From IMG/VR virus record IMGVR_UViG_3300032282_004415, positions 1-24,165 of that record: a DNA stretch of 24,165 nt; one strand, given 5' to 3'. This DNA comes from a virus. A program made the translations under genes and the position numbers. Within the stretch, counting starts at the first letter, position 1. Every line of letters begins with the position of its first letter. The notes under the pieces were generated by a model. That model was not told the DNA's origin, ran no database searches, and saw only the letters and a list, made by a program, of their open reading frames with translations. Below, piece after piece: positions 1,907-20,610 of the stretch.

Positions 1907-2206
1907 TCACTTCTGAAGTTTTTTATTTTCTTCTTCTATCATACGATATAGAGTTTCTGCATCAACGTGTTCTTCTTTGCCCTCCAATATTCTTTGTTTT
2001 TTATAACCAGTTGCTTCTTCTAATATCTCTACTAATCTTTGATCATTCACCGAGATTTGTTGAATGACATAACCCATGAATTGATGGGCGGTTAAACCAT
2101 GACGAAATAAAACCTTTTTAAAGTTTAACATTTCTTCCTTAGTGAACTTTAATTCTAGTAGTTCCTTTGGAAGAACCTTCTTTGGTCTACCCGGTCCTCT
2201 TTTCAT
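1907..2206 (-). CDS. Small protein with AT-hook-like N-terminus
   Basis: A 99-residue protein. It begins MKRGPGRPKKV, which contains the GRP core with flanking basic residues typical of AT-hook minor-groove binding segments. The rest is helical and charged and carries no recognised fold. The start ATG at 2206 lies 8 nt after GGAG. The stop is 3 nt from the gene before it in the operon. DNA binding is suggested only by the AT-hook-like stretch; it could also simply be a basic tail. Confidence 0.7.
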   Translation of the reverse strand: MKRGPGRPKKVLPKELLELKFTKEEMLNFKKVLFRHGLTAHQFMGYVIQQISVNDQRLVEILEEATGYKKQRILEGKEEHVDAETLYRMIEEENKKLQK

Positions 2207-2209
2207 TGA

Positions 2210-3073
2210 TCAATCTCCGCCACCTCCACCAAGTTGTCCACCTTCTCCACCTGCGTTGAAGGAATATGGTGTTGGATACTCGCCGCCTCCTGCTGTAGAA
2301 GTATACTCTGTATTTGTAGGATGTAATCCATAATTTTTTTCCATTATCTGAATAAACATCTTAGCTGTTCTTTCATCGTAATTGCTTCTAATGTATTCTT
2401 CAACACGATTGAGAATGATGGAACGTGGATTTAACAAAGCATCGTAGTTGTTGATTAGACGGGCAACGCTACGAGTAAAATCATTTAGATTAATCTTTGG
2501 AGTATTGACAACTGGTGGTCCTTCTGGTGGTGGACCACCGCCGCCAGCATCATCTCCACCGCCAGCATCTCCTTCATCTGGAGGAGGTTCATCGGCAGGG
2601 GGTTCATCTGGTGGTGCATCTTGCTCAGAAAGCAATGATTGTAACTTGCGTAGTTGACGTTCTTCTAAAGAAGAAGGAGAAGGTTGCTGCGCTAATGTTT
2701 CTGGAGGTGGAGCGGCTGCTGGATTTGCTCCAGGTCCAGGCATACCGGTTTGTGGGATGCTTTCTCTTTCATAACGAACAACATATTTGTCTACTACTTG
2801 ATCTAGAGAAACAATCTTTTGCGGAACAGGAGCAAAATCTGCCATTTGTTGTGGATATTGCGCTTGAACTACTTGTTCTTTTAAAACTAAATCCTTATTA
2901 CGAGCAACATATAGAACGTTATTAATACGAACATATGAATGTTGATTGTCAATAAGACGAACGTGTTCATATAGGGTTCCAGCAGGAACACTTACGGGAC
3001 GATTTGAGCGTGTGGTATAACCAAGCTTACCGCCGTGGCGAACCATTAATGCATTATTTTTTAACTTTTTCAT
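2210..3073 (-). CDS. Hypothetical protein with Pro/Gly/acidic linker
   Basis: A 287-residue protein starting at ATG 3073 behind GAGGA. Residues 1-85 look like a beta-rich domain (alternating hydrophobics with a VRINNVLYVARN stretch). Residues about 110-190 are low complexity, rich in Pro, Asp, Glu and Gly, and clearly a flexible linker. Residues about 190-255 are helical, and the tail is Gly-rich again. It is the second gene of the operon headed by the SOD-like gene. A modular protein with long disordered linkers suits a virion component, but no family is recognised. Reverse-strand readings over the linker are repeat-driven shadows. Confidence 0.75.
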   Translation of the reverse strand: MKKLKNNALMVRHGGKLGYTTRSNRPVSVPAGTLYEHVRLIDNQHSYVRINNVLYVARNKDLVLKEQVVQAQYPQQMADFAPVPQKIVSLDQVVDKYVVRYERESIPQTGMPGPGANPAAAPPPETLAQQPSPSSLEERQLRKLQSLLSEQDAPPDEPPADEPPPDEGDAGGGDDAGGGGPPPEGPPVVNTPKINLNDFTRSVARLINNYDALLNPRSIILNRVEEYIRSNYDERTAKMFIQIMEKNYGLHPTNTEYTSTAGGGEYPTPYSFNAGGEGGQLGGGGGD

Positions 3074-3074
3074 A

Positions 3075-4076
3075 TCATCCTCTTGTTTGAACGCCAGGTG
3101 CTTGTGTAGCTGGAGCTGCTGGTGCCGATGGGGAAAGTGGCGTTGTAGCTTGATTGCCCAATCCAGTTGTTACAGCTTTTTCTGCTGGTGGTTGAACTTG
3201 TGTAATTGGCACAGTTCCTGCTCTTTCAGCGGCGGCAGTAAGCATTGCATCTGGTCTTGGATTTGTAAGCGGCTCGATCTTGTAAATGAGATCAAGATTT
3301 GATTTCTCACATACAGCAATACGTGCCTCAATAACGTCCCAATTCAATTCTTTCATCATTGCGAAAAGATAAGCCTTTTTATCTAAGCTATAATCTTTAA
3401 AATAAGCGTGTTCCCACATATCCATAACAATTACTGGAACGCAACCAACTGGAATATCTTTGTCATGGCTATCAACTGTTACGTTCATGAATACATTACG
3501 ATAAGGTTCCCAGACTGTGATGCCCCAGCCATTACGGGATGCCATGCAAGCTGCCATGAAATCTTCTTGCCAAGCTTCAAAGGTGCCCCAATCTCTTGCT
3601 AGTCTCATATATGGAAGACTATCAACACGGATTTCACTATCAACATCTGAAATGTTTGCAAAATATAGTTCATGAAGCTTTACGCCATTGAAGTTATATG
3701 TTTCATCAACCTTTAATGAACGATATGAACTAGCGGTAGCTTTAACATCGCCTCTATCAGCAGCTATTAAACCGGTGGCTACCTTATTGAAGGCTTCTAC
3801 ATAACCCTTATAAAGCTTATCATGCGCTGTCTTTGCTGAATCAGAAAGCTTCTCAGTCTTCATCATGTGAGACTTTGGAATAAGAGTAAAACCTTCTTTA
3901 AGGGTTTTAACTGCATTTTTTGCTGCACTAGTAAGCAATTGTGCTACAGAAGACTTGGATGCTTCTGTTAGTTTTTTAGGTTGTTCTGGAGATAATCCTT
4001 TAGCTTCAAGAGTCTCTTTTACTGCTCTCTTAACTTCACCGTTTAAAAGGGCTTCTATTTCTTTTGTAAGTTTCAT
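3075..4076 (-). CDS. Fe/Mn superoxide dismutase-like protein
   Basis: A 333-residue protein. ATG 4076 is preferred over an upstream TTG (4094) because it has GAAGG nine bases upstream. Residues about 80-255 read as an Fe/Mn-SOD domain: LHELYFANI (135-141), a tryptophan-rich NGWGI (182-186), and the family signature VIVMDMWEHAYFKDY (215-229). By alignment to known SODs, His135, Asp219 and His223 match three of the four metal ligands. The first ligand, in the usual HHxKHH helix, appears replaced: residues 84-92 read AHDKLYKGY, with Ala84 at the ligand position and Leu88 at the gateway-His position. An N-terminal helical extension (1-75) and a Pro/Ala-rich tail (295-333) are absent from ordinary SODs of about 200 residues. 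The fold call is fairly firm; activity is doubtful. Confidence 0.8.
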   Translation of the reverse strand: MKLTKEIEALLNGEVKRAVKETLEAKGLSPEQPKKLTEASKSSVAQLLTSAAKNAVKTLKEGFTLIPKSHMMKTEKLSDSAKTAHDKLYKGYVEAFNKVATGLIAADRGDVKATASSYRSLKVDETYNFNGVKLHELYFANISDVDSEIRVDSLPYMRLARDWGTFEAWQEDFMAACMASRNGWGITVWEPYRNVFMNVTVDSHDKDIPVGCVPVIVMDMWEHAYFKDYSLDKKAYLFAMMKELNWDVIEARIAVCEKSNLDLIYKIEPLTNPRPDAMLTAAAERAGTVPITQVQPPAEKAVTTGLGNQATTPLSPSAPAAPATQAPGVQTRG

Positions 4077-4114: not shown

Positions 4115-4143
4115 AAGGCTGGAAAGATTACCCTTCCAGCCTT
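4115..4143 (-). terminator. Hairpin, possible terminator of the polymerase operon
   Basis: AAGGCTGGAA and TTCCAGCCTT form a 10-bp stem with a short loop in the gap between the 105-residue gene and the SOD-like gene. The T-tract on the minus strand is poor (TTATCTAATT), so termination may be partial. Confidence 0.5.
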
Positions 4144-4152
4144 AATTCTTTG

Positions 4153-4470
4153 TTATTCTTCTATTTTTGTTTCTATTGGCAAGAAATATTTTTCCCACTT
4201 ATCATTTGATATTGCTACCGTTCTGTCTCCATATAAACATATATGATATTCAGACGTTTTATCACTATCCCAATTAATAGACACAAATGGAGTTGTAAGC
4301 CGAGCCATTTCTAATTTTAATACCACTCCATCTGTCATTAGTTTCGTAACTGGGTCTGTATTAAAGTTTCTGAACCATTTACCTTCTTCGTTCTTTTCTA
4401 CATAATGAACTAAAACGCCTCTGCTGGAACTACCACTTATAGCTGTATAAGCACAGCGATATAATGTCAT
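4153..4470 (-). CDS. Hypothetical 105-residue protein
   Basis: It starts at ATG 4470, overlapping the stop of the polymerase C-terminal half (ATGA), so it is translationally coupled to it. The sequence is a mixed, probably beta-rich small domain with several aromatic residues (WFRNF, INWD, WEKYF) and no catalytic signature. It resembles other small soluble proteins of this window in size and composition. A hairpin follows it at 4115-4143. Function unknown; the coupling suggests only co-expression with replication genes. Confidence 0.65.
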   Translation of the reverse strand: MTLYRCAYTAISGSSSRGVLVHYVEKNEEGKWFRNFNTDPVTKLMTDGVVLKLEMARLTTPFVSINWDSDKTSEYHICLYGDRTVAISNDKWEKYFLPIETKIEE

Positions 4471-6710
4471 TTGCTAATAATCTCCAGGGTTCCAAAGAAT
4501 GTAGACAAGCCGAAATCACTCTTCTTGAACCTTCCAAGAATAAGACTGTTCTCGGGAATAATCTTATCTTTACCAGCCTTGAAGTTCCATACGAAGACCT
4601 CCATATCGGTGCAGGAAGCCCCGTAAATCTTCATTCGCATATATGCCTTACCTGTCTTCGTCTTGGCTTCTCGGGCGTTTTTAACAATGCACCAGACCCA
4701 TTGCTCGTCATCTTCCCAATCGTCAATAGAAGTAATGCCACTTGAACGGAAATATTCTGCAATCTCGGGCGTAACAATAAGATCAATATCTACAGTTCCA
4801 GATAGAGCACGACTGAACTCTACCTTTTCCTTCAAATCCCAATCTGGTAGCTCCTGTGCCTCCGCAATAATACGAGCAAGATCCTCCTTATGAGTCTTCT
4901 TCTTCTTACTTACTGCACGCTTAAGTTCGTCGCCCTTATCTACCAATACATGGTGAAGCTGACGATAGTTCTTAAACATCTTGCCTTCTCCTACAAATCC
5001 CAAGCTTTCAAATGCTTCAAGCTTGATTAGAGTAGACATTGCACGCTTATTAAACTTGGAATGACGCCATGTGTCATTAGGATTAAACAACAAATCCTCA
5101 AGACTGTTATAAGGGCGGAAATCATTAATCTCATTAAGAACCGTCATACCAACGTGCTTAAGAGAAGCGAATGAGGGAATAAGCTTTCCATCACGAATGG
5201 TATATTCCTTCTGAGATAGATTTACATCGGGCTTACCGATAGAGAAACCAAGTGCCTTAGCCTCAGATAGAGCAATAGCCTTTGGATCTTCCTTACCAGC
5301 TTGCTTGCCCTTCTCTGTGGCACAGTAATCAATATATGTGGTAATCCATTCCTCTGGATAGTAGGTTAGGAACCATGCACATTGATATGAAGTAATAGCG
5401 TAAGCAACAGCGTGGCTCTTATTGAATGAATAGGCTACGAACTTTTCCATTTCATCAAAGATGCTGTAGCTGATTTCCTTATCAATGTTATTTGTAGCAA
5501 GGCAGCGATTAGCAAAATCTTCACGCATTGCCTCACGTTCCTTTGCAGCCTTTTCCTTATTGGATAGATCCTTCTTGGTGAATGCCTTACGGACAGCATC
5601 GGTATCTTCAAGAGGAACACCAGCAAGCTTATGGTAGATTAGCTGTAGCTGCTCTTGGAAGACGATTAGACCTGACGTATCTGCCAATACCTCCTCCAAC
5701 AAAGGATGCTTATAAACAATCTTCTTGGGGTTCTTACGGTTATTCAAATATAGCTTGTCAGCACCGATACCAAGAGGACCGGGACGGAAAATAGAAGTAG
5801 CAATAGCAATATCTGTAATGCTATTAGGCTTCATTTCTGCCATGAACTTCTGAACGTTCTGCTGAACGAACTGGAAGATACCAGCATAACGGCTATCCCA
5901 ATAAACGTTCTTATATACCTTCATATCATCAAGAGCATTAACGTCTGGATGAAGATTATCATCAAACCACTTCTTGATCATATCAAAGGTAATATACTTG
6001 CGTAGAGGGTTAGTCTTACGAAGGATTTTACGGATACACTCCTCAAACATTCGGAGGGTTCCAAGACCGAGGATATCAAACTTAAGAAGCCCGAAATCTT
6101 CAAGGTGGCGTGCGTTAAGACCTTCTGGCCATGGAGTTTGAAGAACATCGCCGCTCTTAATGATTGGCATATTATCTCGTGGATTGCTGGTAATGATTAC
6201 ACCGCCAGCGTGGCGAGATACGTTTCGCATCTGCTTGAATAGAACACGAACTGTCTTTTCAAACTCTGGATACTTCTCCATCAACTCACGGAATGAAGGA
6301 GAGTTATTCTCAGCTTCTTCATAGGTAAGAACCCAGCCAGCACGATCAAATCCTGGCGTCTTCTTAGCCTCTGCAAGAGCTTCATTCTCAATCTTGCCGG
6401 TATACTTGTTAACTTCATCAAATGATAGACCAGCAAGACGAGCAACGTCCTTAATCAAACTGCGTAGCTGTAGCTGATTAAAGTTAGAAACTGAGATAAC
6501 GTTCTCTGTCCCGAAGTAATCGCCAATAAGCTTAACAGCCTTTTCACGATCACCGAAATCGCTATCAATATCCGGAAAGGAATTATGGGTCAATACATAA
6601 GTTCCATCAAGCTTATCACTAACAAAAAACGTATGATCTTGTTCAACTCCAATATCAATCAATTGGATTGATTGATCAAGAATTCTTTTGTTGATGCTTT
6701 TGATCTTCAT
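4467..6710 (-). CDS. dnaE: DNA polymerase III alpha, C-terminal half, with C-intein
   Basis: A 747-residue protein. Residues 1-43 are a C-terminal split-intein half: block F-like IDIGVEQDHTFFVS, block G ending YVLTHN, then the +1 residue Ser44. The extein starts SFPDIDSDF, which holds the first two catalytic aspartates (Asp47, Asp49). The palm/finger motifs GIFQF, SITDIAIA (third Asp) and FRPGPLG follow, then GLIVFQEQ, the SFNKSHAVAYA region, a helix-hairpin-helix-like stretch and a C-terminal OB-fold-like region. The known cyanobacterial split-DnaE intein site (before the SFNKSH equivalent) is uninterrupted here. The ATG at 6710 lies inside the nuclease gene and has no clear Shine-Dalgarno sequence. 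Activity requires trans-splicing with the protein of 7577-9430; the joined product would be about 1229 residues, near the usual DnaE length. Confidence 0.93.
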   Translation of the reverse strand: MKIKSINKRILDQSIQLIDIGVEQDHTFFVSDKLDGTYVLTHNSFPDIDSDFGDREKAVKLIGDYFGTENVISVSNFNQLQLRSLIKDVARLAGLSFDEVNKYTGKIENEALAEAKKTPGFDRAGWVLTYEEAENNSPSFRELMEKYPEFEKTVRVLFKQMRNVSRHAGGVIITSNPRDNMPIIKSGDVLQTPWPEGLNARHLEDFGLLKFDILGLGTLRMFEECIRKILRKTNPLRKYITFDMIKKWFDDNLHPDVNALDDMKVYKNVYWDSRYAGIFQFVQQNVQKFMAEMKPNSITDIAIATSIFRPGPLGIGADKLYLNNRKNPKKIVYKHPLLEEVLADTSGLIVFQEQLQLIYHKLAGVPLEDTDAVRKAFTKKDLSNKEKAAKEREAMREDFANRCLATNNIDKEISYSIFDEMEKFVAYSFNKSHAVAYAITSYQCAWFLTYYPEEWITTYIDYCATEKGKQAGKEDPKAIALSEAKALGFSIGKPDVNLSQKEYTIRDGKLIPSFASLKHVGMTVLNEINDFRPYNSLEDLLFNPNDTWRHSKFNKRAMSTLIKLEAFESLGFVGEGKMFKNYRQLHHVLVDKGDELKRAVSKKKKTHKEDLARIIAEAQELPDWDLKEKVEFSRALSGTVDIDLIVTPEIAEYFRSSGITSIDDWEDDEQWVWCIVKNAREAKTKTGKAYMRMKIYGASCTDMEVFVWNFKAGKDKIIPENSLILGRFKKSDFGLSTFFGTLEIISK
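6582..6710 (-). other. C-terminal split-intein half (43 codons)
   Basis: It encodes residues 1-43 of the polymerase C-terminal gene. The last residues are His-Asn followed by Ser as the first extein residue, as required for Asn cyclisation and ester exchange. Lysines here are a mix of AAA and AAG, and the stretch is more AT-rich than the extein that follows at 6581. Confidence 0.9.
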
Positions 6711-7617
6711 ATGTGATTATTAACTCTTTAGTTTTTTTATTTCGGTAATTTCTTTGTTCAAGATTTGGAATAGCTAACCAAAGATTAGCATATTTTAATG
6801 CATTTATAAACATTTTTTGAGTTATGACGAATATGTTTATATGTTGCAACATTGATGCTTTATCAAGATTTTTTGTCATTATTTTTGAAAAAGCAGAATT
6901 ATTTTTTTCTACTCCTTTTAGTTCCACATACGTATCAAATTCAGGTATATAAAAATCCGGAGTATATGCACCCTTATCTGTTATAAAGGTCTTTTTTTCA
7001 TATAGATATGAATATCCAATGTGCAATACAAATCTTGCAAAATCAGCCTCTAAAGCACTTTTGAAATAATCTTGAAGATTAATATCTTTACGATAACCTG
7101 TTCTGCCATTTAAATGGATTTTTATTTTTCCATTTGATTGATCAATATATTGACATTCACGACTACAACGTTGTAAATGATTATCTGATTTTTTTATTTC
7201 AAATGGTTTTGAACAAGTAATGCATATTTTTGTAATTCTTCCTGCTTTGTGAAAGCATTTTCTGGAACAGTAATGATCATTTAAATCACTTGGTTTGCCT
7301 TCAAATGCATTTCCGCAGTATTCGCATATACGTTTAAAGATTGAAACTTTTTTGCTTTCATTCTGACATTTTTTTGAACAATAAGAACGTTGTTGCGATG
7401 GATAACTAACAAAAACGTTTTCACATACCTTACAACAACGGTCTATTTTTCCCTCTTTCTTTTTTCTGCCAAATTCATTTTTACATTTATCATTACAATA
7501 TATACGTCTTAAAGTTCCAGTTGATCCGCTACCATTTTTTTCTGGAATTGGTATGAGGAATTCTGAACCGCAATTTTTACAGCATTTTGATAAGTTCATC
7601 TGTTTCTTGGATTGCAT
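6676..7617 (-). CDS. Zinc-finger PD-(D/E)XK homing-type endonuclease
   Basis: A 313-residue protein encoded between the two polymerase halves, overlapping the N-half by 41 nt and the C-half by 35 nt. The N-terminal half has four repeated zinc-binding modules, each C-x2-C then C-x3-C: Cys13/16/41/45, 62/65/80/84, 98/101/117/121 and 132/135/151/155. The C-terminal half has a PD-(D/E)XK nuclease signature: Glu190 in LEADFARF, Asp221 in YTPDFYIPE, and Glu232-x-Lys234 in YVELKG. Such a gene between split-intein halves is the 'fractured gene' layout, in which the nuclease spreads the element. It has AT-rich, AAA-rich codon use unlike the exteins. The start (ATG 7617 or 7599) is uncertain, as neither has a good ribosome site. 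It is not LAGLIDADG, HNH or GIY-YIG. Confidence 0.85.
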   Translation of the reverse strand: MQSKKQMNLSKCCKNCGSEFLIPIPEKNGSGSTGTLRRIYCNDKCKNEFGRKKKEGKIDRCCKVCENVFVSYPSQQRSYCSKKCQNESKKVSIFKRICEYCGNAFEGKPSDLNDHYCSRKCFHKAGRITKICITCSKPFEIKKSDNHLQRCSRECQYIDQSNGKIKIHLNGRTGYRKDINLQDYFKSALEADFARFVLHIGYSYLYEKKTFITDKGAYTPDFYIPEFDTYVELKGVEKNNSAFSKIMTKNLDKASMLQHINIFVITQKMFINALKYANLWLAIPNLEQRNYRNKKTKELIITYEDQKHQQKNS

Positions 7618-9430
7618 CTGCTCTTACTTCAACTTCCTGACCATTTCTGCTAACAATCCAAAGATGATTGGGACTGCACGTAATCACGGTTCCATCTTCT
7701 GCTTCAATATCCAGTAATTCTTTATGAGCAGAATATTCTTTTGTCATTACAGGCTTATATTCATTATTGTGAGTTAATACCAGATCCCCAATTGCAATGT
7801 CTTTAAGCATTTTTGAACCAACATCGGTCATAACATAAGTATGTGGAGCCAGACACTTTTTCTTCCTTACCAAGAAACGTTCAAACAACAATCCAAATCT
7901 TACTGGATCTACCTGGGTAATACCAAGCGAATATGATAGAAGACTGCCACCAGCAGAACCACGTGCGTTACCAATCATCATCTGCTTTGAAGCAATATCC
8001 ATGATCTTGGCGTAAGTAAGGAAATACTTTGCAAACTTAAGTTCCTTGATTACTCCAAGTTCGTAGACAAGGCGATCAATATATTCACCATCCTTATCAC
8101 GCTTACGGGTCTTAAGCCCAATCTTAGCAAGACGCTTCAACTCTTCAAAAGCAAGAACGTCCTCGTCTGCACCTTCACCAAGCTTTTCAATAGCATCTTC
8201 AAGGTGGGTCTTTGGAACAAGCTTCTCAATAACAGGAAGCTTAACAGAACGATCAAAATCAACCGTTCCAATCTGATTGTGAGCAATATCCCAGGTGCGC
8301 TCAATAGCATCACGGACTACATCATCATTATAACAATCAAATCCAGCGGTATAATGCTTGTAGCTGTCCCAAATCTGCTGAACGTTCTTTGGATATAGTT
8401 CACACTTAAGTTCCTCTACCTTCTGAGGAAGCTTAGATGCATCTACACCATCCTTGGACTTTGAAGCCCAAGCCATAGCCTTATAGAGTTCACGTTCACG
8501 CCAATGATCCGGATTAGAATAGTGGCTATCGCAAGTCACAACGAGATTTGTATTCGTGCGCTTTGCGGCTTCCATGATATGAAAGTTCTTTAGATGCTGG
8601 GCACCAAGACGGTTAAACTGCATTTCAAGGTAATAGTTCTCTTCCCCAAGAGCATCCTTGAAAGCGTAAATCATATCCTTTAGTTCACTCTGAATAAGCT
8701 CAAAGTTAACATCGTTTGGACCCCAAGTAGAGTAATCCGCATTAGTCTGGTGAGAAGCGATGATATGCATATCTGCACCGGCAACGCAAGCAGAAAGAGC
8801 AATGATATTGCCCTTTGCTTCACGCTTAAGCATATCCAAATCAATGCGGGGATACTTGTAGAACCCATCAATATATGAGTTAGATACAAGACGGAATAGG
8901 GTCTTTAGTCCCGCTGTATTCTTTGGAAGCAGGACAAGATGATTGCGTCGCTGAATAGGATCACGATACTTATTGGACTTACTATCGTCCTCGTTTTCTA
9001 CCGTTGTCCCCGCAAGTTCATCTTCATCAACGGGCTTAACTGCGCCAGCCATTTCTTCAAGTTCAGCCTTGGCAGAAGCAAGTTCATCACCGATATTGTC
9101 TGGATTAGCTGCAAGCCGCTTTGCTTCCTTCTCAGCAGCCTTAGCTTCATCCTGTGCATTCTTTAGCTTACGCCATTCTGCGAGGGATGGGATATAATAA
9201 GCTTCAAGTCCTGGCAATGCCTTAAACTTAAGTCCTTTACTTTTAAGCTTTTGAGCATGAAGATATTGCCATGAAAAACTATTCATATTCCCATGATCAG
9301 TTAGGGCAAGGGCATCAGAACCATTTGAAATGGCAAAATCCATATGATCTCCCGGCGTGCCGATTGCATCACCTGGGCTACCAATAGTTGAATGACCGTG
9401 AAGGTTTACGAAATGCTTAGGTGTAGTCAT
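7577..9430 (-). CDS. dnaE: DNA polymerase III alpha, N-terminal half, with N-intein
   Basis: A 617-residue protein. Residues 1-525 are the N-extein. It has a PHP domain (His11/His13 in NLHGHST, Asp45-His46-Gly-Asn, a GLEAY strand and a CDSHY motif), an inserted Ala/Glu/Lys-rich helical stretch at about 87-158 that ordinary DnaE lacks, and the start of the palm up to FERFLVRKKK. Residue 526 is Cys1 of a 92-residue split-intein N-half; block B reads GTVITCSPNHLW. The stop is internal to what would be one intein. The gene has its own promoter (9437-9465) with the -10 box six bases before the ATG. The catalytic Asp pair is missing from this half and is supplied by the C-half after trans-splicing. 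Confidence 0.93.
   Translation of the reverse strand: MTTPKHFVNLHGHSTIGSPGDAIGTPGDHMDFAISNGSDALALTDHGNMNSFSWQYLHAQKLKSKGLKFKALPGLEAYYIPSLAEWRKLKNAQDEAKAAEKEAKRLAANPDNIGDELASAKAELEEMAGAVKPVDEDELAGTTVENEDDSKSNKYRDPIQRRNHLVLLPKNTAGLKTLFRLVSNSYIDGFYKYPRIDLDMLKREAKGNIIALSACVAGADMHIIASHQTNADYSTWGPNDVNFELIQSELKDMIYAFKDALGEENYYLEMQFNRLGAQHLKNFHIMEAAKRTNTNLVVTCDSHYSNPDHWRERELYKAMAWASKSKDGVDASKLPQKVEELKCELYPKNVQQIWDSYKHYTAGFDCYNDDVVRDAIERTWDIAHNQIGTVDFDRSVKLPVIEKLVPKTHLEDAIEKLGEGADEDVLAFEELKRLAKIGLKTRKRDKDGEYIDRLVYELGVIKELKFAKYFLTYAKIMDIASKQMMIGNARGSAGGSLLSYSLGITQVDPVRFGLLFERFLVRKKKCLAPHTYVMTDVGSKMLKDIAIGDLVLTHNNEYKPVMTKEYSAHKELLDIEAEDGTVITCSPNHLWIVSRNGQEVEVRADAIQETDELIKML
7580..7855 (-). other. N-terminal split-intein half (92 codons)
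   Basis: It encodes residues 526-617 of the polymerase N-half: Cys1 (codon 7855-7853), the IAIGDLVLTHN strand, and block B TCSPNH with the conserved Thr and His. The 92/43-residue sizes are close to those of gp41-1-type split inteins (about 88/37). Codon style becomes more AT-rich here than in the extein. Confidence 0.9.
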
Positions 9431-10984: not shown

Positions 10985-11305
10985 TTAACGACGCTTTTTC
11001 TTCTTAAGAGCTATACCAATTGATACTGGTTCTCCAACTGGTTGATTATTGACCGGTTGTTGGATATCAGAGGCAATATTTTCTTCGCCAAACACTTCTT
11101 CTTCTAATGGAAGATCAAGTAACCTTTCTTCCTTTGGGACACGATATGTAACTTCTTGATAAGCAATCTTTTCTTCTTCTTTGACAGCTTGTACAGATGG
11201 TTCAACTACAGGAGTTGAAGCCGATTCCGGAATAGGCGTTACATTAACTTCTTCTTTTGCTCTATTCTGTCTTGCTCTTGCTTTTCCTCTTACTAAGAAT
11301 GGCAT
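10985..11305 (-). CDS. Hypothetical disordered protein with basic ends
   Basis: A 106-residue protein. ATG 11305 is preferred over TTG 11311 because AAAGGA sits 6 nt before it. The N-terminus is basic (VRGKARARQNRAK), the middle is Pro/Glu/Val-rich and probably disordered, and the C-terminus ends KKKKRR. It follows the region-4-like gene by 2 nt and is probably in the same operon as the sigma factor. Basic ends around an acidic middle could mean nucleic-acid or RNA-polymerase contact, but this is speculative. Confidence 0.65.
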   Translation of the reverse strand: MPFLVRGKARARQNRAKEEVNVTPIPESASTPVVEPSVQAVKEEEKIAYQEVTYRVPKEERLLDLPLEEEVFGEENIASDIQQPVNNQPVGEPVSIGIALKKKKRR

Positions 11306-11307
11306 AT

Positions 11308-11595
11308 TCAATCCTTTTTTATTTCCTGATAAGCACGATGTAATACGTCAGCCAATGCATTGTGAATATCCTGAGAATTCATCATTTCCTCAATCTTATC
11401 ACGATCCGGCTTAACCTCTGTTTGCTTAACTATATTTGTAAGAAGCTTTTGCAATGCTGACATTAGTTGATTGCGGGCTGTAGCATGGTTCATCTTATAC
11501 CCAGCCTTTGTCATAATATCCGCTATAGCACGGAAATCAATTCCTTCAATCGTTATATAACGTTTTTTTTCACAATTTTCATCATTATTTTTCAT
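11308..11595 (-). CDS. HTH protein, sigma region-4-like, with replaced 5' end
   Basis: A 95-residue protein. Residues about 17-55 (GIDFRAIADIMTKAG, MNHATARN, LMSALQKLL) read as a helix-turn-helix of the sigma region 4.2 kind: 'TL-EI-x-M' helix, turn, recognition helix, then AL-KL. The C-terminal part is helical. The upstream sigma gene ends just before where its region 4.2 should start, so this protein probably supplies that domain in trans, like T4 gp33 beside gp55. Its first codons overlap the GIY-YIG gene stop (ATGA) and use a GGAG site inside that gene. An older start for the same gene survives at 12347 (KKEYITLDEGID versus KKRYITIEGID here), so residues 1-20 came with the insertion. Confidence 0.8.
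   Translation of the reverse strand: MKNNDENCEKKRYITIEGIDFRAIADIMTKAGYKMNHATARNQLMSALQKLLTNIVKQTEVKPDRDKIEEMMNSQDIHNALADVLHRAYQEIKKD
11535..11548 (-). repeat. 14-bp direct repeat, downstream copy at GIY-YIG insertion
   Basis: TGAAGGAATTGATT (minus strand) inside the HTH gene, identical to 12308-12321. It marks the point where the rebuilt coding sequence rejoins the original. Confidence 0.85.
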
Positions 11596-12284
11596 TTATA
11601 TCTCCATATAAATCCGCCAGCAGTTTTACTTCTATTTTTTAGACATTGAACTATGGCGGTTCTATTAATTCCAGTTATTTTACTTGCTTCTGCTGCACAA
11701 CTATACTCTTTAATAATCTTTTCATTACTTTTGTCAAACTGTAATATAATTTTTTTACGACTTTCAGACAGATTAATCAATGCCCGTTTTTGATTTTCAT
11801 TTATTATACGACCTTTTAACGTTTTCTTTATTTTTTCTATAGTTTCTTTGTTCGGACCTCTTCCTTTTAAGGAAGCAGCTATTTTTCTTTTTGTTTCTTC
11901 AGATAACGTTACACCTTTTCTCGAACTTGTTTGCCCAATATGAGATGCAGAAAGTTTCTTTTTTGTATCTTCTGAAAAGAAGATGCCGGTATTTCTATCA
12001 GCTATTTTTCGGATATTATAACATTGTTTTTGTTGATCCCAAAATTTATCAAGCCAATATTGTTCTCTTTCAATTATAAACTGTTCTTCTACATATTCTA
12101 ATATTTCATATGTAAAAGCCTTTTCTCCACATTTTCTCCAGTCCGCCTGAAGATATGGATTATCATGTTTGCCAATTTTTAATTTGGACCAATGACAACT
12201 TTTTCTCTTTGAAAGACATTTTGTGGAGCCAACATATATTCTGCCATTTAAATGATTTTTTATTGAATAAATTCCGGAATTCAT
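11592..12284 (-). CDS. GIY-YIG homing endonuclease
   Basis: A 230-residue protein. The GIY-YIG nuclease domain occupies residues about 1-95, with GIY at 4-6, YVG at 17-19, a conserved Arg-rich helix and a catalytic-type Glu in the IEREQYWLDKF segment. Three NUMOD3-like repeats follow (FSEDTKKKLSASHIG, LSEETKRKIAASLKG, KETIEKIKKTLKG), and the C-terminus is a NUMOD1-like HTH (AAEASKITGI..., ending GGFIWRYK). It cuts DNA site-specifically and promotes its own spread. It sits inside the 5' end of the HTH gene, between 14-bp direct repeats, with no intron features. There is no good ribosome site. It is AT-rich, like the other endonuclease genes. Confidence 0.92.
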   Translation of the reverse strand: MNSGIYSIKNHLNGRIYVGSTKCLSKRKSCHWSKLKIGKHDNPYLQADWRKCGEKAFTYEILEYVEEQFIIEREQYWLDKFWDQQKQCYNIRKIADRNTGIFFSEDTKKKLSASHIGQTSSRKGVTLSEETKRKIAASLKGRGPNKETIEKIKKTLKGRIINENQKRALINLSESRKKIILQFDKSNEKIIKEYSCAAEASKITGINRTAIVQCLKNRSKTAGGFIWRYK

Positions 12285-12305
12285 ATATATAACTATGAAT
12301 GAAGG

Positions 12306-12347
12306 CTAATCAATTCCTTCATCAAGGGTAATATATTCTTTTTTCAT
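12306..12347 (-). pseudogene. Orphaned original start of the HTH gene
   Basis: ATG at 12347 behind a strong AGGAG site, overlapping the sigma stop (ATGA). It encodes MKKEYITLDEGID and then TAG. The peptide matches residues 10-20 of the 95-residue HTH protein (KKRYITIEGID). This is the original 5' end, cut off by the GIY-YIG insertion. A hairpin (ATGAAGG, 10-nt loop, CCTTCAT) spans the junction. Confidence 0.8.
12308..12321 (-). repeat. 14-bp direct repeat, upstream copy at GIY-YIG insertion
   Basis: TGAAGGAATTGATT, identical to 11535-11548 and 773 bp away. It ends the severed original reading frame just before the TAG. Confidence 0.85.
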
Positions 12348-13072
12348 GGGATCTCCTTTATAACGTCAAAACGTAGTAGGAGAATATATCTCTCCTTCTC
12401 AGACAAACTCTTCAATGCATTCTTTACAAGAAGAAGAAACTCTAAATTGCCGTATCTTGTTTCTATATTTTCATCTGAAACCAATAGGTCTTTTAGAGTA
12501 TTGTTATTCTCTCCATTACCGGCTTTAATCTGTTCATCCATAGAACATACATTCTTTGAACGATTTGCCATTGTTATGGATTGAAGCATTTTGTCACTAC
12601 AACCATCTTCTTTTTTTTCCTTAGAATCAGCGTTATTGATATAGTCCTGTAAAACTATATTCTCTTCACGAAGCTTCTTCTGGATCTTATTATTTGCCGT
12701 TCTTACATGAGAAGGAACGTGAATGATAGGCTCTACATTTAGAAGATAATTGTTAATGGCTTGGCGGATCCACCATGTTGCGTAGGTAGAGAAACGATAT
12801 CCGAGTTCTGGTTTATATCCCTCAATAGCTGACAGAAGACCTATAACACCTTCTTGCATCATATCTTCTTTAAGAAGAGAGTACTCTTTCTTGTTATTAT
12901 AATACTTGTTGATTATATACGTTACGAGAGCTTGGTTCTTTTTAACAATCTGATTACGAGTATTAAGGCTTTTCGTAGAGACATATTCAAAATAGATTTG
13001 GTCAATCTTATTAACTGTCTTCTCTAATACCGGCTCCTCTTCCATCGGTTCCATTTTTATTGCTTCCATCAT
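12344..13072 (-). CDS. Sigma-70 family factor lacking region 4.2
   Basis: A 242-residue protein. Region 2 is clear (MQEGVIGLLSAIEGYKP, then FSTYATWWIRQAINNYL, covering the core-binding and -10 recognition helices). It is followed by a region-3-like VPSHV helix, a Lys/Asp-rich linker, and the start of region 4 (SLSEKERYILLLRF). The reading frame then ends at VIKEIP, before the -35-binding HTH. The next gene begins with an ATGA overlap and carries an HTH of that kind, so the pair looks like a split sigma factor. The start is ambiguous: ATG 13072 (ATGATG) or ATG 13054 (GGAAG upstream), both inside the preceding gene. It presumably directs host RNA polymerase to phage promoters. Confidence 0.88.
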   Translation of the reverse strand: MMEAIKMEPMEEEPVLEKTVNKIDQIYFEYVSTKSLNTRNQIVKKNQALVTYIINKYYNNKKEYSLLKEDMMQEGVIGLLSAIEGYKPELGYRFSTYATWWIRQAINNYLLNVEPIIHVPSHVRTANNKIQKKLREENIVLQDYINNADSKEKKEDGCSDKMLQSITMANRSKNVCSMDEQIKAGNGENNNTLKDLLVSDENIETRYGNLEFLLLVKNALKSLSEKERYILLLRFDVIKEIP

Positions 13073-13532
13073 TTTGTTCTTTCTTGATCTTTCGGTCAAC
13101 TGCCCACATAAGGTAGGTGGTAACGCAGCGTGACTTCACTTGTTCAAATCTACGCCGGTTCACATAAAGTTTCAACCGTTTAGACAACTTAAATCCTGTT
13201 TTCCATGCGTCAAGCTCTTCCTCAACTCTTTTTACTTTATGAGTAATGCTAGCACTTCCAAAGCTTTCAAAAACAGCATTATAACGTTCTTCATACATAC
13301 GATTGTTCTGACATAGCATCATATGTCCAATCTCATGCAGCAAGACATAGAACGTTAGTTCGGTTGTCCGATCTTTTTTTATTACCCACTTATTTTTATG
13401 AATGATTGCGCTATCGGCATTAGGATCCTTACGGGAAACATATTCTACTTCCCAACCCTTGCCAGCGCAATATTCTTCTAATATCCGGATCTGAGACTTC
13501 CAGAGCCCACGAGATAGATTGATCTTACCCAT
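13011..13532 (-). CDS. Putative zinc metallopeptidase (HExxH)
   Basis: A 173-residue protein starting at ATG 13532 behind GAGG. Residues 62-72 read YVLLHEIGHMM, with the HExxH zinc site at 66-70. A downstream acidic helix (VEEELDAWKTGF, about 103-114) could supply the third ligand, as in ImmA/IrrE-like and related gluzincins. The C-terminal 60 residues are basic and extend over the sigma gene start, overlapping it by about 60 nt. Co-transcription with the sigma factor is from the promoter at 13551-13579. A role in cleaving a host regulator or in phage development is conjecture. Confidence 0.75.
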   Translation of the reverse strand: MGKINLSRGLWKSQIRILEEYCAGKGWEVEYVSRKDPNADSAIIHKNKWVIKKDRTTELTFYVLLHEIGHMMLCQNNRMYEERYNAVFESFGSASITHKVKRVEEELDAWKTGFKLSKRLKLYVNRRRFEQVKSRCVTTYLMWAVDRKIKKEQNDGSNKNGTDGRGAGIREDS

Positions 13533-14353: not shown

Positions 14354-15133
14354 TCAAATCTGTTTTAGTCTTTCATTTATAATATCAACATATTCGGCGT
14401 TTAGTTCTATGCCAATATAAGGCATACCCAGTTTTTTAGCGGCGACACATTCACTACCACTACCAGCAAAAGGAATCAGAACATATCCGTCATCTTGTTT
14501 ACAAGAAAGCAAAAGCCTTTCACAAAGAGCTAGAGGCTTTTGAGTAGGGTGATCTACACGTTCCTTCATCCCAGCACCACCTGCCAATGCAGGAATCTTT
14601 ATAACGTCTCGGGGTAGTGCTCCACGTGGATTTGCGGTATACGTGGTTTCCTTCTTTCCTTTACTAAATCTTCCTTGACTACTTGCCCTAGTTTTTCCAG
14701 CAGCACCGTTCAAAAAACCTTCCGTATATGGTTCTCTTATTTCGTCCCGGTTAAATACCTTATCATCTTTCCAAAGAACCAAGATGCTTTCATGCGAACG
14801 TTGCCAGAAATTTAAAGTAGGAACGTTCTTATTTGTATAATGCCACACAAGCCAACGACGATTAACGTTTGTAGGAACTCGTGAAAGAATTAAAGCCAAG
14901 TTTTCTGAGAAGCCATATATGAACATCGTTCCATTTGGCTTAAGGACTCTTAGACACTCAGCAATCCACTTATCACACCATTCCAAGTAATCAGTCAATT
15001 TCTGTTTGTCGCTATTGTTTCCGAAATCTTTACCTATGTTATATGGCGGATCTGCTAAAACAATTTGTGCTGAATTTGCATTCAAGGTCGGAATTATTTG
15101 AAGTGTGTCGCCGTTTATAATTTTGCTTTCCAT
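14354..15133 (-). CDS. DNA adenine/cytosine-N4 methyltransferase, beta class
   Basis: A 259-residue protein. Motif IV ADPPYN at residues 27-32 comes first, a variable target-recognition stretch follows (about 95-190), then HPTQKP (195-200) and the AdoMet-binding motif I FAGSGSE (222-228) with IGIELN after it. This motif order defines the beta class of N6-adenine/N4-cytosine methyltransferases. The target sequence cannot be read from it. The promoter TTTATA-17-TAGGTT ends 6 nt before the ATG. With the following nuclease gene it looks like a complete small restriction-modification pair. Alternatively it is an orphan methylase protecting phage DNA from the host. Confidence 0.92.
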   Translation of the reverse strand: MESKIINGDTLQIIPTLNANSAQIVLADPPYNIGKDFGNNSDKQKLTDYLEWCDKWIAECLRVLKPNGTMFIYGFSENLALILSRVPTNVNRRWLVWHYTNKNVPTLNFWQRSHESILVLWKDDKVFNRDEIREPYTEGFLNGAAGKTRASSQGRFSKGKKETTYTANPRGALPRDVIKIPALAGGAGMKERVDHPTQKPLALCERLLLSCKQDDGYVLIPFAGSGSECVAAKKLGMPYIGIELNAEYVDIINERLKQI

Positions 15134-15215: not shown

Positions 15216-15216
15216 A

Positions 15217-15299
15217 TGGGATCACCCGGACTTGAACCGGGACGCCTTTTGGGCAGCAGATTTTAAGTCTGCGGTGTCTGCCTATTCCACCATGGTCCC
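15217..15299 (-). tRNA. tRNA-Leu (anticodon UAA)
   Basis: An 83-nt class II tRNA. Acceptor GGGACCA pairs with TGATCCC with one C-A mismatch, the T-arm is CCCGG-TTCAAGT-CCGGG, the anticodon loop is CTTAAAA, and the long variable arm (TGCTGCCC...) is typical of leucine. The discriminator is A and no CCA is encoded. It reads UUA/UUG codons, common in the AT-rich phage genes. Confidence 0.92.
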
Positions 15300-15311
15300 A
15301 TCTACATTTCT

Positions 15312-15340
15312 AATCTATCACATCATCTTAAAGTTGTAAA
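15312..15340 (-). promoter_or_regulatory. Promoter of tRNA-Leu(UAA)
   Basis: TTTACA (15340-15335), 17 bp ending TGTGA and TAGATT (15317-15312), lying between the two leucine tRNA genes. Confidence 0.6.
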
Positions 15341-15350
15341 CTCTTTTTTA

Positions 15351-15432
15351 TACCAGCGGTCAGACTTGAACTGACAAGAGCATTGCTCGGCGGAGTTTGA
15401 AGCCGCTGCGGTTGCCTTTTCGCCACGCTGGC
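15351..15432 (-). tRNA. tRNA-Leu (anticodon CAA)
   Basis: An 82-nt class II tRNA. Acceptor GCCAGCG/CGCTGGT pairs fully with a G-U at the end, the D-stem is GCG/CGC, the T-arm is GTCAG-TTCAAGT-CTGAC, and the variable arm is GAGC-AAT-GCTC. The anticodon arm is GCGGC-TTCAAAC-TCCGC, giving CAA with a C-U mismatch at the last stem pair. A one-base shift would give UCA (opal suppressor/Sec-like) but breaks two stem pairs. It starts 5 nt after the stop of the preceding protein gene, so it is probably processed from that transcript. No CCA is encoded. Confidence 0.85.
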
Positions 15433-15437
15433 GTTTA

Positions 15438-15701
15438 TCACGTGCCCGAAGGCAGCTTTTCAATCTGATTGAGATAGTTGTCTACGTCAATCGGAGTAAG
15501 ATAGCCCAAAACATCAGACGTAATGGGCGTATCATAACAAAGATTGAAATCATCAATAGATGAACCCTTGAACTTAACAACAGCCATTTCTGAACCGTAT
15601 GAAAAACTATGCTTTACAATACTGGCACCATAACCGTTATCAAAACGGTAAATCGTCTGAGTGCCATTATGCGTTGAACGTGTAATCTTTTCCGTTGCCA
15701 T
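15438..15701 (-). CDS. Hypothetical 87-residue protein
   Basis: It lies between two tRNA genes and is co-transcribed with them. ATG 15701 has no strong Shine-Dalgarno sequence. The protein reads as a small mixed domain (TIYRFDNGYGASIVKH, MAVVKFKGSSIDDF, YLTPIDVDNYL) with no catalytic motif or membrane segment. Function unknown. Confidence 0.7.
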   Translation of the reverse strand: MATEKITRSTHNGTQTIYRFDNGYGASIVKHSFSYGSEMAVVKFKGSSIDDFNLCYDTPITSDVLGYLTPIDVDNYLNQIEKLPSGT

Positions 15702-15731
15702 TTGTTTCTATTGTGTTAAAGGGTTATCCGA

Positions 15732-15806
15732 TAGGGCATAAAGGAGTTGAACCTTTCTCCAAACCGCTTATAAGACGGCTTCTGACCACCACGCCAGCCA
15801 CGCCCC
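15732..15806 (-). tRNA. tRNA-Ile (anticodon UAU), irregular anticodon arm
   Basis: A 75-nt tRNA. Acceptor GGGGCGT/ATGCCCT pairs with two G-U pairs, the T-arm is AAAGG-TTCAACT-CCTTT, and the D-arm is CTGG/TCAG. The anticodon loop CTTATAA gives UAU, which reads AUA. The anticodon stem pairs over six positions (AGCCGT/GCGGTT) instead of five, one base longer on each side than the canonical form. No CCA is encoded. The fold is good enough to call; function should be treated with some caution. Confidence 0.8.
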
Positions 15807-15911: not shown

Positions 15912-16463
15912 ATGACAATTAAAGAACATACTAAAGAAACGTTGATAGAGCAGTTAAATCGTTTGACAGCCGAAAATAAAAGAATGCCAAACACGCACGA
16001 AACAAAACTTAGACTTATTAAGTTGGGAATATTTCAAAATATTTGTTCAATATGTTCTATTGCTGATTGGAATGGCAAGGTTTTAAGCTTGCATTTAGAC
16101 CATATTGATGGTAATCCAAAAAACAATTTGATATCAAACTTACGTTTACTATGTCCAAACTGTCATTCTCAAACTGAGACTTATTGCGGAAAAAACGTTA
16201 ACAAACAGAAGAAAACAAATTATTGCTTGGGTTGTAATAAGATGTTGTCTTCAAGCTGGACTAGTCGCTGTTCTGATTGCTTTTTAAAGCTAAAATATCG
16301 TCAAACCAAAATAATATGGCCTGAAAAGGAACAGCTCGTAAGAATGATAATGAACCAAAAGATGGAGCACATAGCAAAAGAGCTAGGTGTCTCAAGTAAT
16401 GCCATCAAAAAGCATTGTAAAAAAATAGGAATAGATTATCAGGCTGTTAAATATTTCGTCTAA
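15912..16463 (+). CDS. HNH endonuclease with C-terminal HTH
   Basis: A 183-residue protein. The HNH nuclease core is CSIC (45-48), LHLDHIDGNPKNN (60-72) and NLRLLCPNCHSQT (76-88), with zinc cysteines and the catalytic His pair in place. A second Cys pair set (C105/C108, C120/C123) suggests another zinc site. The C-terminus (about 145-175, HIAKELGVSSNAIKKHCKKIGI) is an HTH. This is typical of free-standing phage homing endonucleases. It is the only plus-strand gene before 19.2 kb and converges on the 16460-16720 gene with a 3- to 4-nt stop overlap. It is AT-rich, like the other two endonuclease genes, and so probably acquired. Confidence 0.9.
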   Translation: MTIKEHTKETLIEQLNRLTAENKRMPNTHETKLRLIKLGIFQNICSICSIADWNGKVLSLHLDHIDGNPKNNLISNLRLLCPNCHSQTETYCGKNVNKQKKTNYCLGCNKMLSSSWTSRCSDCFLKLKYRQTKIIWPEKEQLVRMIMNQKMEHIAKELGVSSNAIKKHCKKIGIDYQAVKYFV

Positions 16464-19239: not shown

Positions 19240-20610
19240 ATGATGAATAAACAAAATGTTCTCCGTGCCGGTGGTCTTAACGACGAAAAGCCCGTCAAGC
19301 GTGATGCGGCTTCCGATCCTGATAATCAGCTTCGTCGCCCTGACGAGTTTGATTTTGATTTCCTTGAACTCTATATGCAGGATCCTTTCCTTGGTGGTGT
19401 CTCGCTGGACATTACGAAGGATGCAGATCCTAACTGCCCTACCGCTTACATCGGTGTCCGCAAGAATGGTGGACGCCATGACGTGATCATGGGTTATTCG
19501 CCTAAGTTCATGCGGGAGTTGACCCGTGAGGAGCGTAAGGGCGTTATCTGCCACGAGATTTACCACATGGTTTTCTCGCATATCTTCCATCGTGCGGTTG
19601 CTCAGGGTGCAGATCAGATGCTTTGGAATTGGGCTACCGATCTTGCGATTAACAGCATTATCGGCGCTAACAAGCTTCCTAAGCTTTGTCTTATTCCCGG
19701 TATTCGTCCGTTGGAGCGTCAGGAGGATGGTAGCATGAAGCCCGCCTCTAATCCTTATGCAGATTTCATTGCTAATGCCGAGCCGCTTCAAGCGTCGGAT
19801 TATTACTTTGACGAGCTTAAGAAGATCCGTGACGAGCAGAATGACGGTGAGGGTGATCTACAGGTTGTCTATGATAGCATGGGCACGATGGATGATCACG
19901 GTAGCTGGGGTGACATTGACCCTGAGACTGCCGAGGAACTTCGTGATAAGATGAAGGATCTTATTGACCGTGCAGCCAAGCGTGCGGATCGTAGCAATCA
20001 ATGGGGTTCGGTTCCTGCTCATATTCAGGAAATGATCCGCAAGATGCTTTCTAACGAGGTTGATTGGCGTAGCATCATTCGTAACTTCATTGGGCGTGCC
20101 CGTAGCACGGATCGTCATAGCACGATCAAGCGTATCAACAAGAAGATGCCTTATGTCCATCCCGGCGTTAAGCGTCCTCTTATCGCTAACTTCGCTTGTT
20201 TCATGGATCAGTCGGGTTCTATGGCAGACGATGATATCGCTCTGCTCTTTAGTGAACTCGGCAATCTTGCGAACCTTACGCAGCTTGACGTTTATCACTT
20301 TGACACGGAAATTGACGTTGACTCGCATAAGGTTTGGAAGAAGGGCGATAATACGCCTCAGATGCTTCGGACTCGTTGTGGTGGCACCGATTTTGATGCG
20401 GTTGCTAAGTTTGTCAACGATCCTAAGAATCGTGGTCGCTGGTCGGGCATCATCATTCTTACCGATGGTTATGCTCCGAGCATGAGTGCCGTTAACGGTG
20501 CAAAGGTTCTTTGGGTTGTGACGCCTACGGGCACGATGGATCACGTTCGTCCTGGCGATCTTGCTTGCAAGATGAATTCTGGGGAGGGCGGTAAGTTCAA
20601 GGCTTATTGA
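19240..20610 (+). CDS. VWA-domain protein with metallopeptidase-like N-terminus
   Basis: A 456-residue protein. The N-terminal half has CHEIYHMVFSH, with HExxH at residues 105-109, and DLAINSII after it, as in the VWA-MoxR-associated metallopeptidase family (COG3864-like). The C-terminal third is a von Willebrand A domain with an intact MIDAS: Asp-Gln-Ser-Gly-Ser at 323-327, Thr383-Asp384 in GGTDFD, and TDG at 408-410. It pairs with the MoxR ATPase read in the opposite direction. Such pairs are thought to remodel or insert cofactors into protein complexes; the target in a phage is unknown. It is GC-richer than its flanks. The start is ATG 19240 or 19243. A strong terminator follows. Confidence 0.9.
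   Translation: MMNKQNVLRAGGLNDEKPVKRDAASDPDNQLRRPDEFDFDFLELYMQDPFLGGVSLDITKDADPNCPTAYIGVRKNGGRHDVIMGYSPKFMRELTREERKGVICHEIYHMVFSHIFHRAVAQGADQMLWNWATDLAINSIIGANKLPKLCLIPGIRPLERQEDGSMKPASNPYADFIANAEPLQASDYYFDELKKIRDEQNDGEGDLQVVYDSMGTMDDHGSWGDIDPETAEELRDKMKDLIDRAAKRADRSNQWGSVPAHIQEMIRKMLSNEVDWRSIIRNFIGRARSTDRHSTIKRINKKMPYVHPGVKRPLIANFACFMDQSGSMADDDIALLFSELGNLANLTQLDVYHFDTEIDVDSHKVWKKGDNTPQMLRTRCGGTDFDAVAKFVNDPKNRGRWSGIIILTDGYAPSMSAVNGAKVLWVVTPTGTMDHVRPGDLACKMNSGEGGKFKAY

Follow-up and report, generated by a model that had tools for sequence, protein, structure and literature searches.

In phage T4, the prohead protease gp21 cleaves after L/I-X-E and removes the N-terminal targeting leaders of internal head proteins, which have been described as basic (PMC9026906). 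These leaders comprise 10–19 residues in the T4 internal proteins (PMC9026906) and from 20 to over 100 residues in related giant phages (PMC10052503, PMC5694885). The chlorovirus PBCV-1 packages a Cu/Zn superoxide dismutase (SOD) in its virion (PMC7019647), and the plastid RNA polymerase subunits PAP4/FSD3 and PAP9/FSD2 are Fe-SODs (PMC8278866).

We noted a gene comparable in some respects to these systems in the window, by which we mean the whole stretch of DNA analysed, a virus fragment of 24,165 bases. It is fairly probable, in our judgement, that its product is a core protein of the head interior of T4-like giant phages, derived from a captured bacterial Fe/Mn SOD, with a cleavable leader and with the metal site mostly kept. 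As in T4 IPI–III and Alt (PMC9026906), there is an N-terminal leader that follows the L/I-X-E rule, and relatives carry a T4-type protease and capsid. However, the phage cargo has an enzyme fold that is not described for the T4 internal proteins, and the leader is longer (21–61 residues in the SOD family). The likeness to the PBCV-1 protein is that of a superoxide dismutase in a virus particle, but that enzyme has an unrelated Cu/Zn fold and belongs to a eukaryotic virus; here we infer packaging from the genes, and likewise infer cleavage, metal binding, activity and delivery. PAP4/FSD3 and PAP9/FSD2 also present the Fe-SOD fold as part of a large assembly, but are non-viral and have no protease-cleaved leader.

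The positions of the features are collected in Table 1. The open reading frame is a real gene, with its length counted from an ATG; an alternative TTG start 18 bases upstream would give 339 residues, and the relatives use ATG. The product matched the Pfam family Sod_Fe_C (E 2.1e-19; 69.9 bits against a curated cut-off of 20.9), with the Sod_Fe_N alpha-hairpin falling below its own cut-off (19.7 versus 27 bits). At E 0.01, Sod_Fe_C was matched by 54/54 family members and Sod_Fe_N by 23/54. The best solved relative was the FeSOD of Aquifex pyrophilus, PDB 1coj (phmmer, E 1.7e-27), a similarity that is far above chance and recurs across 132 distinct phage homologues.

Table 1. Positions in the window of the SOD-like gene, its predicted elements and the two genes beyond it
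Feature	Position	Strand	Basis
Whole gene, SOD-fold protein with N-terminal extension, 333 residues	3075..4076	-	ORF calls, Pfam, phmmer
Predicted propeptide, residues 1–61 (helices 5–25 and 38–57), ending TLKE	3894..4076	-	alignments, pLDDT
Predicted prohead-protease site, L59-K-E61 / G62	3891..3902	-	motif conservation, structure alignment, T4 gp21 rule (PMC9026906)
SOD-fold core, residues 62–258	3303..3893	-	AF2, VIA
His85, probable first metal ligand (human His26)	3822..3824	-	phmmer and profile alignment, co-conservation
Leu88, replacing gateway His (human His30)	3813..3815	-	homologue alignment
His135, metal ligand (human His74)	3672..3674	-	alignment
His204, second-sphere, FeSOD type (human Gln143 position)	3465..3467	-	His in 103/132 homologues
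Asp219, metal ligand (human Asp159)	3420..3422	-	alignment
His223 within WEHAY, metal ligand (human His163)	3408..3410	-	alignment
Pro/Ala-rich C-terminal tail, residues 259–333	3078..3302	-	family tail lengths, pLDDT
Family c3, gene directly after the SOD gene	2210..3073	-	adjacent in 60/77 loci
Family c2, small protein, second gene past the SOD gene	1907..2206	-	at +2 in 65/77 loci

Structure prediction, named by the sequence-only reading as a check on its claims, gave an SOD fold. An AF2 model built from 54 sequences had a pLDDT of about 92–98 over most of the SOD core (in blocks, residues 71 to 260) and was superimposed on 1coj by VIA with a Z score of 26.5 and an rmsd of 1.5 Å over 204 residues, at 32% identity. 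Sequence and model alike thus make the product a protein of the Fe/Mn-SOD fold. The additional N-terminal helices that had been read from the letters were also present in the model, at residues 5–25 (pLDDT 81–92) and 38–57, with a weaker linker at 31–60 (about 60). The Pro/Ala tail noted in the same reading is real, mostly with low pLDDT, but long C-terminal tails (36–75 residues) are confined to the subclade of the window protein, the family median being 7 residues. The phage protein resembles 1coj in its fold, in three certain ligands with a fourth placed by register, and in the His at position 143. It differs in that helix 1 is one residue shorter, the gateway His is Leu and a leader has been added; the phage proteins further differ in an invariant MMKEL segment and, in some members, in the loss of the whole metal site.

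The homologues came from successive scans of IMG/VR, which yielded 16, 166 and 82 matching stretches and, after deduplication, the 132 distinct phage proteins. They sit on contigs as large as 320 kb. Three bacterial SODs were added by a genome scan, along with one contig of a giant phage (L096) that had been binned as Methylococcaceae. Among the GenBank phages, no isolate phage with an SOD-like gene was found, the sole match being a weak one in a 4-kb record. No PHROGs family was found for the SOD-like protein, and a literature search with few subscription journals in its scope gave no description of it.

The case for a cleavable leader is based on family-level conservation and on neighbour controls. 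Among the relatives the N-terminal region, taking the first Met of the ORF as its start, varies from 21 to 61 residues and is barely alignable. Its end is closed by [LIVM]-x-E-[ASGN] in 129/132 phage homologues, with the strict L/I at P3 in 117. The P1 Glu was found in 131/131 aligned rows, with Ala, Ser or Gly at P1′ in 129 of them, and Glu61 is the sole invariant N-terminal column of the 54-row alignment; in the window protein the leader ends LKE/G. At the level of sequence, the motif conforms to the rule by which the T4 prohead protease cuts. In the structure alignment, residue 1 of human MnSOD corresponded to model residue 64 and residue 2 of 1coj to model residue 62; a cut after residue 61 would therefore leave a protein starting where free SODs start. 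The mature domain would be slightly acidic, unlike the basic T4 internal proteins (PMC9026906), a difference that speaks against the head-interior reading.

The frequency of the N-terminal motif was 0.99 for the SOD family, compared to 0.00 for DHH, 0.04 for c10, 0.06 for thymidine kinase and 0.21 for DnaE. The neighbouring epimerase family had it at 0.48, so that a motif this short occurs by chance in some non-virion neighbours. Across the genome of a 254-kb relative, a simple helix regex returned 9 leader-like N-termini against 3.1 ± 1.7 in shuffles, a modest excess on which the argument does not draw. In this relative (L124) a zeta-toxin-like kinase (5912–6793) and a poly(A) polymerase-like protein (11296–12933) both start with leader-like helices ending L-x-E; from their sequences, both may be packaged.

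A protease of the type predicted to act on such a site is encoded by many of the relatives. Of the viral contigs of at least 118 kb that were searched, 12/15 had Peptidase_S77, compared to 0/14 control genomes. The 254-kb relative has terminase, T4-type portal, gp21 protease, gp23 capsid and tail sheath genes in that order. The capsid proteins carry L/I-x-E at about residues 10–12 in 8/8 cases, with a further conserved Glu site near residue 61. The gp23 gene was present in 10/10 SOD-bearing viral contigs over 200 kb and, conversely, contigs of 114 kb or more that were found by the capsid gene alone had exactly one SOD gene in 9/9 cases. No protease or capsid gene was found in the closest relatives of the window, which are fragments of 48–59 kb; the protease link therefore goes via members further removed, among them the contig L023 (320 kb), whose protein belongs to the same supported subclade as the window protein. 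Neither gp21 nor gp23 was found in the Lachnospirales MAG G031, and an SVDxQID motif shared among head proteins was looked for and not found. The T4 late promoter TATAAATA had 0 exact copies 5–80 bases upstream of the called genes in the 254-kb relative, and therefore lends no support to late expression from it.

These data bear on the possibility that the protein is an ordinary auxiliary metabolic SOD, acting unpackaged in the cytoplasm of the infected cell, with an incidental N-terminus. Such a role would fit the complete ligand set of most members and the location of the gene, which is surrounded by genes for DNA polymerase and nucleotide metabolism and not by those of the capsid. However, the extension is variable, yet the Glu and its flanking residues at the domain boundary are nearly invariant; members without any metal site retain the extension; and the gene is a core single-copy gene, whereas auxiliary genes are patchy. 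We regard an auxiliary SOD as unlikely.

The gene order about the SOD gene is conserved among relatives. The window has a split DnaE upstream of it, and small genes and a spanin-like gene downstream. Of the structural-looking and lysis-like neighbours of the sequence-only reading, the spanin-like gene has weak support, and the immediate neighbours are families of unknown function. No Pfam family above cut-off was found for the c3 gene; its product ends in a conserved helical segment at the C-terminal side, and several relatives have leader-like starts and internal L-x-E sites. In 44 loci a neighbour resembling pterin-4a-carbinolamine dehydratase lies downstream of the SOD gene (for example L057:14841–15269), often with a short leader-like N-terminus. 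The gap between the SOD gene and the upstream gene contains an inverted repeat seen by eye (4117–4141, minus strand; ggctggaa...ttccagcc), possibly a terminator.

The DnaE of the window (4467–9430) consists of two genes, the first ending with an N-intein and the second starting with a C-intein (...TYVLTHN/SFPDIDSDF), and an endonuclease-like gene (6676–7617) lies between the halves, an arrangement of the split-intein fractured gene type; in most relatives DnaE is a single ORF. Elsewhere, the window encodes a GIY-YIG endonuclease (11592–12284), a sigma-70 region 2 protein (12344–13099), a DNA methylase (14354–15133), three tRNAs on the minus strand (15216–15806; two Leu, one Ile) and an HNH-like gene on the plus strand (15912–16463). 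GC content climbs from roughly 0.38 to 0.50 around 17–19.5 kb and gene strand flips near 19 kb, the first plus-strand gene past the switch encoding a VWA/metallopeptidase (DUF2201) protein (19240–20610).

The metal site had been read as lacking its first ligand, with Ala in place of the first-helix His and three ligands with the WEHAY signature remaining. Alignment recovered those three (His135, Asp219 and His223), but the substitution by Ala was not upheld. In phmmer, family-profile and MAFFT alignments, His85 was placed against the ligand His of the Aquifex FeSOD, followed by a one-residue deletion; a gap-free profile alignment to SODs with HH at this point puts Ala84 at the ligand position. 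His85 lies at +7 from the helix-start Ser78, the same offset as that of His26 in 1coj and in a pair of bacterial relatives. All 106 His-bearing phage sequences had spacings of 7 and 7 for 78–85 and 85–92, so that the distance from the first-ligand His to the Tyr34 equivalent is 7 and not 8. His85 was also present in 105/106 phage homologues with the other three ligands and in 2/26 of those without them (Fisher p 6e-23, uncorrected for kinship). A paired test on independent branches had three pairs only, with which significance is unreachable. The Ser78-to-His spacing and the co-conservation favour His85 as the first ligand, and the apparent absence of that ligand was probably an error of register. 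The window protein would then have four ligands, three of them certain and His85 placed by register and co-conservation with a gap-free alternative, and it probably binds Fe or Mn. The active-site and second-sphere residues Tyr92 (Tyr34), His204 (position 143), Trp221 and Glu222 are kept.

The change of the gateway His to Leu, claimed from the letters alone, was confirmed at Leu88. His occupies this position in 1/132 phage homologues, with a hydrophobic or other residue in almost all; Tyr92, the partner in the His30–Tyr34 gateway pair, is retained. Animal MnSOD His30 mutants have reduced but retained activity (PMC9208312), so SOD activity of the phage protein is possible, though unproven.

The same shortened helix 1 and Leu gateway were found in a Lachnospirales-order MAG SOD (L097) and in 18 chromosomal relatives (L302–L318 and L320; counted as those with a readable helix 1, L318 breaking off inside the WEHAY segment). 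The Lachnospirales-order SODs (L097, L301–L318 and L320) thus resemble the phage proteins in the shortened helix, the in-register His and the Leu gateway, but differ in beginning at the SOD domain, with no leader and no cleavage motif. As a group in its own right, the chromosomal set L301–L318 and L320, with helix 1 one residue short and a Leu gateway, is apparently uncharacterised. In a tree built without the helix-1 columns, the phage and Lachnospirales proteins shared one side of a branch with a support of 71, which is not decisive; a broader grouping that also took in Aquifex and another two bacterial SODs had a support of 100. Since the helix is common to chromosomal SODs, it is no mark of viral degeneration, and its distribution among these sequences indicates that it is inherited and of non-viral origin.

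On the tree, the state of the metal site (intact or lost) switches 7 times. The entire site disappeared independently four times or more (L017/L202, the L016 group, L158/L184 and the L015/L152 group), and three cases are partial. The ligand-less phage members retain the cleavage motif. These lineages bear on the interpretation of the sequence-only reading, in which the protein is a non-enzymatic structural component with a site already broken in the window member. The absence of the gateway His from nearly all phage homologues would suit it, as would the side lineages that have lost all four ligands and keep fold and leader. Against it, His85 is in ligand register and tracks the other ligands as counted above, and its helix is that of chromosomal bacterial SODs. 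We find a broken site in the window member distinctly improbable. The non-enzyme idea does hold, as judged from their residues, for the side branches lacking all four ligands; its wording 'rather than as an enzyme' is not supported for the window member, given the retained residues and four ligands if His85 counts. The other half of that claim, the SOD fold as a virion part, gained strong though indirect support from evidence outside that reading: the protease-type site where the domain starts, the presence of the protease in relatives and the core single-copy status. That the leader is instead an uncleaved docking segment for another phage complex (tail, neck or polymerase) is very doubtful, as the polymerase subunits PAP4 and PAP9 (PMC8278866) are indeed among the PDB relatives but docking leaves the conservation of L/I-x-E/A/S/G and its position at the domain start unexplained.

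The reading of a head-interior protein can be set out as a proposed sequence of events. A bacterial Fe/Mn SOD would have been captured and become a core head-interior protein across a sizeable group of giant phages resembling T4. The leader, of 61 residues in the window protein, would serve for capsid targeting and carry the protein into the core of the prohead, where the phage T4-type prohead protease would then cut behind Glu61. In the window protein and most relatives, the mature domain would have a complete His3-Asp site with His85 as first ligand on a helix one residue shorter; it is likely to bind Fe or Mn and, with its remodelled gateway, may still dismutate superoxide. In several lineages the metal site has gone as a whole, leaving the leader, the cleavage site and the fold in place, and this retention calls for a second function, either in the head or during cell entry. 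A more specific version, which we offer tentatively and think somewhat less than evenly probable, is that an active Fe/Mn SOD is packed in the heads and delivered with the genome, shielding DNA or early enzymes from superoxide, and that in several lineages it has since become a head protein without metal.

The bacterial SOD subfamily with the altered gateway seems to have no prior characterisation, and the phage family provides a natural series from an intact to a fully lost metal site on one fold. The function of phage internal head proteins is mostly obscure. A core cargo whose fold is recognisably that of a metal enzyme, present in 132 distinct phage homologues, would be a directly testable case of a redox protein carried in the particle of a bacterial virus.
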